A stretch of 17,434 nucleotides of DNA, from the NCBI GenBank assembly GCA_020048295.1, contig JAIFMT010000122.1:1-17434 (forward strand), written 5' to 3'. The translations under genes and the position numbers were made by a program. Shown here piece after piece: positions 1 through 14,425 of this stretch. The notes below the pieces were generated by a model. That model was not told the DNA's origin. It searched no databases and was given only the letters and a program-made list of their open reading frames with translations. This stretch comes from Rhodoferax sp. (GTDB lineage Bacteria > Pseudomonadota > Gammaproteobacteria > Burkholderiales > Burkholderiaceae). Positions within the stretch are counted from its first letter, which is position 1, and the number at the start of each line of letters is the position of its first letter.

Positions 1-572
1 TTGCTGGCAAAGTTGCAGCCGGGCTGGTTTGGGTTGACGATCACATCCGCCTCGGGCAGCGCCACCTGGCCACCCACGCTGGCGCACAGATGGTGGTCGG
101 TGACCAGCACCTGCAGGCCCAGGGCCCGGGCCGCTGCCACACCATCAAAGCTGGCAATACCGTTGTCCACGGTGATCAGCACGTCAGCGCCGCTGGCTTT
201 CACCCGTGCCGAAATGGGCGGGGTCAGGCCATAGCCGTCTTGCACACGGTCGGGCACGATGTAATCCACATGACTGGCCCCCAGCAGGCGCAGGCCGCGC
301 ACCGCCACGGCGCAGGCGGTGGCACCGTCGCAGTCGTAGTCGGCCACGATGCACAGCCGCTTGTCGGCGGCAATCGCATCGGCCAGCAGTTGCGCGGCCT
401 GTTGCGTGCCTTTCATCGTGGCAGGCGGCAGCAGTCGGGCCAGCGCATCGTCGAGTTCGCCAGGGTCTTGCACGCCTCGCGCTGCGTAAAGCTGGGCCAG
501 CAGCGGGTGGATGCCGGCTTTTTCGAGCGCCCAGAGGCTGCGGGGCGGAATGTCTCTGATTAAAATTTTCAT
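1..572 (-). CDS. recJ: Single-stranded-DNA-specific 5'-3' exonuclease RecJ, N-terminal part (cut by window edge)
   Basis: RecJ degrades single-stranded DNA 5' to 3' in recombination and mismatch repair. Reading the minus strand from an ATG at 572 gives an uninterrupted frame of 190 codons running off the left edge; a full RecJ has about 570 residues. Visible DHH-superfamily motifs, in order, are VADYDCDGATA (motif I, the metal-binding aspartates), ITVDNGI (motif II) and VTDHH (motif III, the name-giving DHH), followed by VNPNQPGCNF, which is typical of RecJ. The start MKILIRDIPPR fits the family. No Shine-Dalgarno sequence is seen before the ATG; the leader is instead made of a copy of the interspersed repeat at 563-612, which may even provide the start codon. 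Identity is secure from the motifs; the exact start is slightly less so. Confidence 0.95.
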   Translation of the reverse strand, partial: MKILIRDIPPRSLWALEKAGIHPLLAQLYAARGVQDPGELDDALARLLPPATMKGTQQAAQLLADAIAADKRLCIVADYDCDGATACAVAVRGLRLLGASHVDYIVPDRVQDGYGLTPPISARVKASGADVLITVDNGIASFDGVAAARALGLQVLVTDHHLCASVGGQVALPEADVIVNPNQPGCNFAS

Positions 573-612
573 AGCTGGACGCGCAATCGAGATAAGGGCT
601 ACAGGCACAAAA
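563..612 (+). repeat. Interspersed repeat, copy A (recJ leader)
   Basis: Contains TAGCT, then GCGC four bases later, then ATAAGGGCT seven bases later and AGGC. This is the same ungapped spacing as copies B, C and D. By hand count it shares 29 of 41 core positions with copy B and 25 of 41 with copy D. The left end overlaps the first codons of recJ, which runs on the opposite strand. Confidence 0.7.
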
Positions 613-756
613 CGACCTGAAAATAGCGGAAGGCGGGATGACACGGGGTGGCGTTGACCCGACAAACACCGCGCTGTGCGGCTTTAACGATCGCGGCCAT
701 GGTGGAGCCGCCGCCAGGGATCAAAATACCGATGTTTTTTCATACTGAAGCGAATT

Positions 757-1449
757 ATGACTTTGACCCCTACCTCCTTAGCGACGACTGTGACCCTGTC
801 CATTATTGAAGCCCGCGTGCTCGGCACACTGATGGAGAAAGCCCGCACCGTTCCAGACAGTTACCCGCTGTCACTCAACGCGCTGGTGTTGGGCTGCAAC
901 CAAAAAAGCAGCCGTGACCCCATCATGGAACTGGCTGAAGCCGATGTCGCCAGCGCTGTTGCCAGCTTGAAAGAGCGCAATCTGGTGCGCGAAAGCAGTG
1001 GCTCGCGGGTCACGCGCTTTGAACACAACTTCCAGCGTGGCATGGGCGTGCCCGAACAATCCGCCGTGCTGCTGGGCCTGTTGATGCTGCGCGGACCACA
1101 AACCGCCGGCGAACTGCGCCTGAACACCGAGCGCTGGTACAAGTTTGCCGACATTTCATCGGTGGAAGGTTTTCTTGAGGAACTGCAAAACCGCGCCACC
1201 GAAAAAGGCGGCCCGCTGGTGGTCAAGCTGCCCCGCGCACCTGGCGCGCGTGAACAGCGCTGGGCACACCTGCTGTGCGGAGCGGTGGATGAGGCGCAAT
1301 TTGCCAGCGGCACGACGCTGCGGTCTGTTGATTTCAGCACGCAAGACCGCATTGAACGGCTCGAAGCCGAGGTGGCGCAGTTGCGCGCCACGGTCAACAA
1401 GCTTTGCTCCGAACTGGGCATTGAAGCGGCTGCATCACCAGACGAATGA
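757..1449 (+). CDS. yceH: YceH-family protein (DUF480/UPF0502)
   Basis: A 230-residue cytoplasmic protein of the DUF480 family, whose E. coli member is YceH. The family folds as two winged-helix domains, which suggests DNA binding or protein contacts, but the molecular role is unknown. Family hallmarks are visible: VLGTLMEKARTVPDSYPLSL near residues 21-40, the NQKSSRDP segment that follows, GVPEQSAVLLGLLMLRGPQT opening the second domain, and a C-terminal coiled coil (IERLEAEVAQLRATVNKL) that many members have. The ATG at 757 gives a slightly long N-terminus before the conserved region; only a weak GAAG at 747-750 could act as ribosome binding site. It stands alone, facing away from recJ, and is followed by a terminator at 1509-1530. 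Confidence 0.92.
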   Translation: MTLTPTSLATTVTLSIIEARVLGTLMEKARTVPDSYPLSLNALVLGCNQKSSRDPIMELAEADVASAVASLKERNLVRESSGSRVTRFEHNFQRGMGVPEQSAVLLGLLMLRGPQTAGELRLNTERWYKFADISSVEGFLEELQNRATEKGGPLVVKLPRAPGAREQRWAHLLCGAVDEAQFASGTTLRSVDFSTQDRIERLEAEVAQLRATVNKLCSELGIEAAASPDE

Positions 1450-1508
1450 GCCGATCACTTGCCCACTGGCCAGGCACACGGCAACAAACAAGGGGATTGG
1501 CTGACGAT

Positions 1509-1530
1509 CCTGGCGCGCCAGGTTTTCTTT
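1509..1530 (+). terminator. Intrinsic terminator after yceH
   Basis: A perfect 14-base palindrome, CCTGGCGCGCCAGG (1509-1522), is followed at once by TTTTCTTT. This is a G+C-rich hairpin with a U-run, 59 bases after the yceH stop. It lies directly against repeat copy B. Confidence 0.65.
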
Positions 1531-1582
1531 ATGAAAAATAGGCCTCCAGACCTTATATCCATTGCGCTACCAGCTACAAACA
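1531..1582 (-). repeat. Interspersed repeat, copy B
   Basis: Read on the minus strand it has TAGCT, GCGC, ATAAGGTCT and AGGCCTATTTTTC at the same spacing as the other copies: 29 of 41 core positions shared with copy A and 27 of 41 with copy D, by hand count. It begins about ten bases past the premature stop of the Uma2-like fragment, in the same orientation as that gene. Confidence 0.75.
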
Positions 1583-12770: not shown

Positions 12771-12843
12771 CTTTGTTGCTTGCGCTGTGGTGAGTGCGCA
12801 GTAGGATACAGGTCTTGGCGTGGCAACTATTCCTACCCCTCAC

Positions 12844-12848
12844 AGGAG
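12844..12848 (+). promoter_or_regulatory. Ribosome binding site deciding the start of the sheath-like gene
   Basis: AGGAG six bases before the ATG at 12855. It rules out the longer in-frame start at 12780, whose extra 25 codons do not look like protein. Confidence 0.7.
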
Positions 12849-12854
12849 ACAGCA

Positions 12855-14357
12855 ATGGCAACGATCCCCATGCAGTTCAGTTTCACCACCCACACCGCGC
12901 AGCGTGCGCGTCAGGTGGATGAAGACGATCCGTTTCGTGTTCTGGTGATCGCCGATCTGGGTGGCAGCGCGGCCGCACGCAGTGGGCAGGCCCTGGCGCA
13001 GCGCAAGCCGTTGGCGATTGATATCGACAACTTTGACAAGGTGATGGCACGCATGGCGATGCAATTGCAGCTGACCCTGGACGGTGCACCACTGAGTCTG
13101 GATTTCCAGAGTCTGGATGATTTTCATCCGGACGCATTGTTTGCCCGGTTGGTGCCCTTTGCCGCGTTGCGCCAGTTGCGCGCCGACCTGGCTGATCCGG
13201 CGCGCTTTCACCGCGCTGCGGCATCGTTGGGCTTGCCGGCTGTGCCCGACACGGCATCACCCGCTGCCACGCCAGGCGAGACGATTGACATGGAACGTCT
13301 TCTTGGACGCAAAGCCTCCACAACCATTCAGGCCCCCAGTGACTCTGGCAACACTGGTGCGCCAGACCTTACCGGCTGGTTGCGCCGTGTCGTTGCGCCG
13401 CATGTGGTGCAAGACATCAGCGCCGAGCAGGCTCAGTTGACGGCGGCAGTGGATGCCGCTATTGCCGTCACCATGCGCAGCCTGCTGCATCACCCGGCGT
13501 TTCAGGCGCTGGAAGCCAATTGGCGCAGCATCGAGCGCCTGGTGCGCGAACTCGACCCAGGCCAGAGCATTCAGCTGTTGTTGCTCGACGTCAGCCGGGA
13601 CGAACTCGCGCAAGACCTGCAGGCGCATGGCGCTGACCTGACGCAGTCTGCGCTGCACCAGCAGCTGTGCGGGCCGCAGACCCAACCGCCCGCCGGCCAG
13701 CGCTGGTCGTTGCTGGTCAGTGACCTGCAATGTGGTGCCAGTCTTGGCGACCTGCAACAATTAGCAGCATTGGGGGCCATGGCGGCCCGCGCCGGTGCGC
13801 CGCTGCTTGCAGCAGCGCAGCCAGCGCTCATCGGCTGTCAAGCAGTCCACGCACTGACCGAGCCCAAGACCTGGCAGCCGCTGCCCGCGGATGTCGCCGC
13901 GTTTTGGCAAACTTTGCGCCACAGCCCGATCGCCCGCTGGATTGGCCTGGCGCTGCCCCGCATCCTGACGCGTCTGCCCTACGGCCCGCAAGCCGACCCG
14001 ATCAGCGCCTTTGCGTTTGACGAGCTGCTGCCACGCGAGCACGCGCACTACCTGTGGGCCAGCCCGGCGTTTTCGCTGGCACTGCTGGCCGGGCAGGCCT
14101 TCATGGACGAGGGTTGGGCTATGGAACTGGCGGCTGGACTCGACATCGACGACCTGCCCAGTCATATTTACCACGACGACGGCGAGGCACGCCAGCAGGC
14201 CTGTGCTGAAGTCCATTGCAGCGAGTCGGCGGGCGAAGCCATCCTCAAACACGGCCCGATGGCGGTGCTGAGCTTGCGCCAGCGCAATGCGGCACGGCTG
14301 CTGCGCTGGCAGTCGATTGCCGAGCCGGCACAGGCATTGCAAGGGGCTTGGGCTTGA
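12855..14357 (+). CDS. Orphan type VI sheath-like protein: TssB-like and TssC-like regions in one chain
   Basis: A 500-residue protein. Residues 24-120 look like TssB (VipA): PFRVLVIADLGG, IDIDNFDKVMARMAMQLQLTL, and LSLDFQSLDDFHPDALF (80-96). After a Pro/Ser/Thr-rich linker, residues 195-500 look like TssC (VipB): HPAFQALEANWRSIERLV from 213, LLLLDVSRDELAQDL, LPRILTRLPYGP (367-378), HAHYLWASPAFSLALLAGQA (396-415) and DLPSHIYHDDG. TssB and TssC normally are separate proteins that build the contractile sheath. No other type VI gene (hcp, vgrG, clpV, tssK) is present on either side, so its role here is unknown; a sheath-derived assembly or a relic are both possible. The ATG at 12855 is fixed by AGGAG. 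The C-terminus is somewhat shorter than in TssC. Confidence 0.82.
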   Translation: MATIPMQFSFTTHTAQRARQVDEDDPFRVLVIADLGGSAAARSGQALAQRKPLAIDIDNFDKVMARMAMQLQLTLDGAPLSLDFQSLDDFHPDALFARLVPFAALRQLRADLADPARFHRAAASLGLPAVPDTASPAATPGETIDMERLLGRKASTTIQAPSDSGNTGAPDLTGWLRRVVAPHVVQDISAEQAQLTAAVDAAIAVTMRSLLHHPAFQALEANWRSIERLVRELDPGQSIQLLLLDVSRDELAQDLQAHGADLTQSALHQQLCGPQTQPPAGQRWSLLVSDLQCGASLGDLQQLAALGAMAARAGAPLLAAAQPALIGCQAVHALTEPKTWQPLPADVAAFWQTLRHSPIARWIGLALPRILTRLPYGPQADPISAFAFDELLPREHAHYLWASPAFSLALLAGQAFMDEGWAMELAAGLDIDDLPSHIYHDDGEARQQACAEVHCSESAGEAILKHGPMAVLSLRQRNAARLLRWQSIAEPAQALQGAWA

Positions 14358-14370
14358 GGCCCGCATGTTT

Positions 14371-14425
14371 ATGCATCAAATTGGCCTATAGCCCTTATTC
14401 AATAAGCGCTTGTAGCTATATAAAA
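14371..14425 (-). repeat. Interspersed repeat, copy D
   Basis: On the minus strand: TAGCT, GCGC, ATAAGGGCT, AGGCCAATTTGATGC. It shares 25-29 of 41 core positions with each other copy by hand count. Its centre (14391-14411) is a near-perfect palindrome, AGCCCTTATT-C-AATAAGCGCT, with one mismatch. It fills most of the gap between the sheath-like gene and dcd and ends about 20 bases before the dcd -35. Confidence 0.75.

Follow-up and report, generated by a model that had tools for sequence, protein, structure and literature searches.

Background

The closest described counterparts of the element treated here, a 68 nt interspersed repeat with five copies in a 17,434 nt stretch of a Rhodoferax sp. 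contig (JAIFMT010000122.1, positions 1 to 17,434; hereafter the window), are two "potential novel motifs", reported as spaced pairs in single genomes (PMC5217627; BMC Genomics 2017 18:27). GCTTAT(N)5AAGCG was found in 114 copies in Acidovorax ebreus TPSY (44 convergent, 4 divergent and 59 co-oriented) and ATAGCT(N)22CAAAAG in 125 copies in Polaromonas naphthalenivorans CJ2 (34 of them convergent), while Rhodoferax ferrireducens T118 had the most motif pairs of all genomes (PMC5217627). These motifs share the gene-end and convergent placement of our element and fit positions 27-42 (GCTTAT pair) and 15-48 (ATAGCT pair) of its model. The GCTTAT pair is in register in 3 of 69 Diaphorobacter copies and the ATAGCT pair in one Curvibacter copy (L013); ATAGCT(N)22CAAAAG occurs exactly in none of 63 copies from two genomes, G013 (labelled Rhodoferax MAG_CA144) and G008 (Polaromonas C04). 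By this motif fit, the TPSY and CJ2 genomes themselves being unsearched, we identify the 2017 motifs as probable fragments of the 68 nt element. Section 13 of PMC5217627 differs from the present account in treating separate short motifs; a family, a 68 nt unit, insertion, copies in integrons and a test of evolution do not appear there. The sequence-only reading that proposed the five copies knew of no published account of a function; we found none in our literature searches either, but fragments of the family had been published in 2017 (PMC5217627). Our search found no account that unites these fragments as a family or tests their function, and a Polaromonas JS666 miniature inverted-repeat transposable element (MITE), cited in a review, could be the same element.

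Repetitive extragenic palindromic (REP) elements with REP-associated tyrosine transposases (RAYTs) are short, mostly extragenic, present in hundreds of copies and built on inverted repeats, and in all of these respects our element is like them. It differs in being a longer fixed unit, in having no within-genome covariation and in that its presence is not tied to a Y1_Tnp gene. RAYT was rejected as the mover because Y1_Tnp (PF01797) does not discriminate, being present in 29 of 31 repeat-rich and 21 of 25 repeat-poor genomes; the element lies within 6 of 30 Y1_Tnp loci of up to ~3.4 kb each. One Diaphorobacter copy (L135:6089-6156) is located ~60 nt from a RAYT-like Y1_Tnp gene (G010:C1:456219), which is rare at other Y1_Tnp loci. 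As judged by eye, the consensus ends (TTGCTAT... and ...AAAAACC) are not the inverted repeats of a MITE.

The Betaproteobacterial repeat element (BRE) is likewise a short betaproteobacterial repeat lying partly in coding sequence, and is described as 69% GC, 75-91 bp long, often tandem and present in at most 29 copies (PMC3110155). By description, our element is set apart from it as a 68 nt unit of 31-57% GC (in one sampled genome) that is dispersed in hundreds of copies. Rickettsia palindromic elements, as described in PMC10969869, resemble it in that some copies lie in frame within genes, but our element is about half their length and is mostly found outside genes.

A high-copy family with a fixed 68 nt unit

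The five sites in the window belong to an interspersed family of 68 nt that has been added as whole units, chiefly at gene 3' ends and convergent junctions. All five, lettered a to e along the window, were recovered by a profile built solely from copies in random stretches of two genomes other than that of the window, with E values of 1.3e-10 (e), 5.2e-6 (b), 2.8e-5 (c), 1.5e-4 (a) and 0.015 (d). This independent profile was rebuilt because copies b, c and e had been in the first training set, which made the first-round scores circular. Across three shuffles of 81 records (80 related loci and the window) its best E values were only 1.3, 0.037 and 0.2. It gave 74 matches at E<0.01 in the loci of 34 repeat-rich genomes (597 kb) and none in the loci of 27 repeat-poor genomes (460 kb), the latter being a specificity control rather than an independent demonstration of absence, since the "poor" label was set by genome-wide counts of the same family. 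On the 23 fixed positions of the sequence-only layout, copies e and a scored 23, b 21, d 19 and c 16, and 15 dinucleotide shuffles of the window had on average 0.2 matches at score 16, 0.13 at 17 and none above. Copy c, in the thymidylate kinase gene (tmk), had been called the weakest; by that consensus it is, and is the only marginal copy, but the independent profile places d lowest.

An iterated profile gave 97 matches at E<0.01 in 39 of the 81 records (1.28 Mb), including all five window copies, and all 97 align without a gap. The single ungapped layout first proposed was therefore correct in its arrangement and too short in its extent. Scanning related loci and genomes with a profile yields many further copies at the same fixed spacing, above the level of shuffled sequence.

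The consensus of 119 copies is TTGCTATTAATTTAATAGCTGCTAGCGCTTGTTCGACGAGCGCTAGAGGCCGATTTGATTCAAAAACC. It reads GCTAY-N7-RTAGC, followed by GCGC-N11-GSGCTA, AGGC, ATTT and an A-rich end, and contains two inverted repeats. Positions 17-19 (AGC) are invariant, positions 4, 5, 26-28, 40 and 42-44 are strongly conserved, and positions 32, 34 and 52 are free. In two sampled genomes, the 137 matches were reduced to 129 copies of at least 60 nt by removing six shorter matches (<60 nt) and two opposite-strand echoes, and 119 of the 129 are exactly 68 nt long.

Twenty stretches of 20 kb contained 53 matches (E<=0.1) in Rhodoferax KJN.1 and 84 in Diaphorobacter nitroreducens, corresponding to ~500 and 700-800 copies per genome, with some partial matches and opposite-strand echoes included. 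Hundreds of copies in each of the two sampled genomes make this a high-copy interspersed Comamonadaceae family, as had been surmised. We also searched 64 whole genomes, leaving out those of 16 of the 80 related loci, at a match threshold of 0.01 in one search batch and 1e-6 in the others. Thirty-four genomes were rich (58 or more matches), three were in the middle (20, 22 and 37) and 27 were poor (0-6 matches); these are matches among the best 104-150 candidates per genome, so that the rich counts are lower bounds. The Limnohabitans and Hylemonella genomes searched were poor, those of Polaromonas and Diaphorobacter rich, and the 23 genomes labelled Rhodoferax were divided (14 rich, 1 middle and 8 poor). 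On a protein tree of ldcA, the LD-carboxypeptidase gene that holds copy d, the rich label needs 8 changes, 7 of them forced by starred branches, compared with a shuffled mean of 21.5; the tree kept the insert's own columns, and the branch of one row (L062) is very long. Besides the window, 23 of the 80 related loci show a recognisable ldcA insert, always at one place. Stretches of the same length occur in some poor species (L015, L017), which suggests that the insert may have been ancestrally present and later lost.

Insertion and placement at gene ends

Convergent junctions carrying one element have, after subtraction of 68 nt, a median length of 40 nt, as do those without an element (40 nt; Mann-Whitney p 0.73). 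Because occupied convergent junctions are thus longer than empty ones by one unit, the element is inserted DNA. Two genes of Comamonas plasmid pI2 are separated by a 73 nt gap that is due to a copy, and the same pair is without the copy in all four relatives opened, overlapping in two and 13 and 10 nt apart in the other two. A copy on an Acidovorax plasmid is missing from the homologous junction of two Variovorax plasmids, which contain no element match anywhere at E<=1e-6. Empty sites were seen in distant relatives only, at a divergence that blurs the exact insertion ends and any target-site duplication. The expectation that close relatives would lack some copies at corresponding places is borne out only at larger distance, on plasmids, and not between species ~90% alike.

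Genes were predicted with our own gene caller, by which 86-89% of the sampled stretches is coding. The 129 sampled copies comprise 67 that are intergenic, 32 that overlap a gene end and 30 that lie inside genes, which is not a preference for in-frame insertion into genes. Elements occupy 40 of 101 convergent junctions, compared with 51 of 531 other junctions (p 2e-12; 44 of 431 co-directional and 7 of 100 divergent), and in the Diaphorobacter sample 30 copies were located at 59 convergent junctions. Copies outside genes lie a median of 9 nt from the neighbouring stop codon; at co-directional junctions 31 copies are antisense and 15 sense. Those inside genes mostly use one frame per orientation (antisense 15 of 18, sense 8 of 12), and the favoured frames are among those most often stop-free in the element. 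A strand bias with replication, as measured by GC skew, was rejected (20 vs 32, p 0.13; 37 vs 40, p 0.82).

Shared sites and constraint between species

G013 and G008 are ~90% alike, and in this species pair all comparable sites are shared. Among 61 G013 copies examined, 28 full-length copies had both flanks in G008 stretches, and all 28 sites were filled and none empty; one further G013 copy, 69 nt long, was also filled. In the other direction, 17 of 38 G008 copies examined had both flanks in G013, and again all 17 were filled and none empty (spans of 65-71 nt, one misjoined case settled by alignment). A second pair, G059 and G060 (84-91% in long matches), gave one clean orthologous site, filled in both.

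A different repeat of ~86 nt and 74% GC (L217:1075-1160, G013:C2) adjoins one element copy. G013 has it at that place and G008 does not, although ~40 matches of 81-98% identity were listed elsewhere in G008; an empty site left by a mobile repeat can thus be seen between these two genomes. By description, this repeat resembles the published BRE.

Within two genomes, about a tenth of each sampled, no near-identical copies were found. The closest pairs were 83% and 81% identical over positions 3-60, and column-shuffled maxima averaged 78.5% and 77.1%, with highest values of 86% and 83%. One whole-genome search with a 10 kb query carrying five copies found no full-length relative of at least 90% among the best 40 of 874 candidates. 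With no empty comparable sites (0 of 28 and 0 of 17) and no sampled pair of copies more than 83% identical, present mobility is not supported; the other possibility raised by the sequence-only reading, that the family is very old, is apparently correct.

Constraint was measured by counting losses only in the partner of the genome from which the copy had been picked, and by comparing high-information consensus letters with variable positions. In one direction the high-information letters were lost in 15 of 459 cases vs 8.2% expected (p 1e-5); in this pair, variable positions change more than conserved ones. The result favours selection on many copies, acting more in one of the two lineages, without being decisive.

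Plasmids, integron cassettes and DUF1010

A plasmid search with a strong copy gave matches in 1786 records at E<=10, which in almost every case covered part of the query, and 23 of the 30 rows listed were annotated as DUF1010. On two clinical plasmids (L274, L275), one copy lies inside a DUF1010 open reading frame (ORF) between dfrA12 and aadA2 (50.5 bits) and another has aminoglycoside acetyltransferase genes on one side and an IS481 transposase on the other (42.3 bits). We take these arrays to be class 1 integron cassettes and the ORF to be the one named gcuF/orfF. In the dfrA12-aadA2 record the Pfam DUF1010 match starts at residue 31 and the element spans approximately residues 30-52; in this case the first third of the domain (a 66-position profile) corresponds to an antisense translation of the element. 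Outside two Diaphorobacter clusters, 16 of 17 DUF1010 matches overlap an element (22 of 30 loci covered), and the lone match without one is just to the end of the domain. The two clusters, in D. nitroreducens (L291, G010:C4:1-1400; L292, G010:C12), contain four and three element copies and are apparently integron cassette arrays. A phage origin was rejected, as only 3 of ~2.9 million viral contigs (searched with one exact pattern) and two weak phage records were found.

Interpretation and alternatives

The best explanation overall, which we hold tentatively and with slightly less than even confidence, is that the family was inserted in ancient times and is now fixed and in part constrained, many of its copies being sites for a trans-acting factor. 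The family would have spread long ago via some mover and then lost mobility, and many copies would now be fixed-spacing, sequence-specific sites at gene ends for a putative trans-acting factor, whose candidate roles are to form transcript 3' ends, to insulate convergent genes or to bind the chromosome. Lineages that lost the factor would lose their element repertoire, which would explain the pattern of rich and poor genomes. In a bolder form that we consider rather unlikely, the genome would carry an array of roughly 500 or more sites of fixed spacing, with some two dozen of the 68 nt conserved in each. Inserted at gene ends and then held by selection, they would be binding sites of a putative protein, of the nucleoid or of 3' ends, by which the boundaries of genes are marked, and the whole system would have been discarded in several lineages.

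Several observations weigh against a constrained site. Constraint was weak in the other direction of the species comparison (21 of 306 vs 9.0%, p 0.11), and 11 pairs added later were borderline by themselves (10 of 219 vs 7.6%, p 0.05). Four same-length counterparts have decayed below detection (one G013 site and three G008 sites, counted in an earlier batch of sites of this pair only). The standard deviation of pairwise identity is 0.075 and 0.076, compared with 0.056 and 0.058 in column shuffles; some relatedness among copies remains, and they are not fully independent draws. Copies in the G013/G008 lineage score lower, and an active lineage may exist elsewhere. The seven occupied divergent junctions are too long for one element (median 451 vs 152 nt), and the copies inside genes (30 of 129) are more readily explained by a mobile element than by a gene-end site. 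Ordinary terminators are as frequent at gene ends with an element as without one, with no trade-off, and neither a factor nor a mover was identified in this analysis.

A rival explanation, with a considerable and only somewhat smaller chance of being correct, is a purely selfish repeat of the MITE or REP type, non-autonomous, mobile and turning over slowly. Copies would survive where they are harmless, namely between convergent genes, after stop codons and in in-frame loops, and the conserved letters would be those a transposase needs. Such a repeat would account for the inserted 68 nt unit, for the fewer copies in genes and before promoters, for the mostly stop-free frames of those in genes, for the copies on plasmids, in integron cassettes and in three viral contigs, and for some excess likeness among copies over column shuffles. 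It accords poorly with the lack of near-identical copies in about a tenth of two genomes, of a full-length relative of at least 90% among the 40 best candidates of the whole-genome search, and of empty sites in the G013/G008 pair, where conserved letters stay so in shared, unmoved copies. The consensus ends that are not inverted repeats and the presence of Y1_Tnp in rich and poor genomes alike also argue against it. We favour, narrowly, a constrained site over pure selfish DNA.

It is improbable that the element consists of two hairpins that terminate transcription in both directions or stabilise RNA 3' ends. Its placement at gene ends and convergent junctions and the two inverted repeats of the consensus would suit this role, and two of three folded Diaphorobacter copies are very stable (z -3.7 and -5.8). 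A set (A1) that mixes 50 copies of many species also showed pairing above all 500 shuffles (70.7% vs 67.0%) and a covariation score of 0.177 vs 0.127 in shuffles, but was given less weight because it holds related sequences. Within two genomes there was no covariation (paired 66.7% vs 67.3% shuffled; 78.5% vs 78.0%), RNAalifold predicted no common structure for the element copies, and 13 of 17 folded copies, all five from the window among them, had z >= -1.6. The consensus has no T-run after its second inverted repeat, as an intrinsic terminator would, and the lack of a trade-off with ordinary terminators likewise argues against this role. A search of Rfam gave no match in the window at gathering score; at E<=0.5 it gave three in 20 loci, all of them off the element. 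Since there is neither within-genome covariation nor a common fold, we think that sequence and spacing matter more than RNA fold and that recognition by the putative factor would rest mainly on them.

An in-frame protein-modifying palindrome like those of Rickettsia is very improbable: the in-frame ldcA copy in 24 genomes, window included, and the mostly single frame of sense copies inside genes (8 of 12) would fit, but 99 of the 129 sampled copies are outside genes or overlap just a gene end, a majority that already weakens the idea, and the tmk copy adds no length.

Copies and other genes of the window

Copy a (557-625, plus strand; covariance model (CM) 29.8 bits, E 5e-6) extends over the first codons of a minus-strand ORF, presumably recJ (ATG at 572-570), and over sequence upstream of it. 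Copy b (1524-1591, minus strand; CM 48.4 bits, E 2.4e-12, in the training set) lies at a convergent junction, between a DUF480 gene (plus strand, ending at 1449) and a 71-aa minus-strand ORF whose stop at 1592 directly adjoins the edge of the element. Two copies are in coding sequence, as had been claimed (Pfam): copy c (2338-2405, plus strand; CM 47.5 bits, in the training set) inside tmk, and copy d (6980-7047, minus strand; CM 33.3 bits) inside the LD-carboxypeptidase gene, in frame and, by protein alignment, in a length-variable loop before LWGGN. Copy e (14366-14433, minus strand; CM 61.2 bits, in the training set) is antisense to a type VI secretion system (T6SS) sheath-like gene, 8 nt past its stop (gene end at 14357; Pfam) and 66 nt before the next ORF (14500).

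An insertion at the tmk copy was rejected, since Tmk is equally long there in several repeat-poor relatives (Tmk alignment). By the independent profile, the resemblance of these native tmk codons to the element is real, and the tmk copy also matches that profile in four other loci (L003, L024, L006 and L076).

Three genes of the window combine domains. A single ORF (12780-14357) has both VipA-like and VipB-like T6SS sheath domains and is an apparent fusion (Pfam), a 363-aa ORF (7555-8646, minus strand) joins deaminase (TadA-like) and alpha/beta-hydrolase domains, and a cyclase-domain gene (5613-6527, minus strand) has an FHA domain.

Implications

The element was named in none of the annotated regions opened, despite its frequency at the Diaphorobacter convergent junctions. 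Its copies among resistance cassettes suggest that these cassettes may have passed through Comamonadaceae. If it is a constrained gene-end site, it would point to a mechanism, so far undescribed, by which transcription is ended or separated or the chromosome organised; if it is not, it would be the fossil of a repeat, with a decay that lends itself to timing. Annotation is affected under both readings, that of DUF1010 included.

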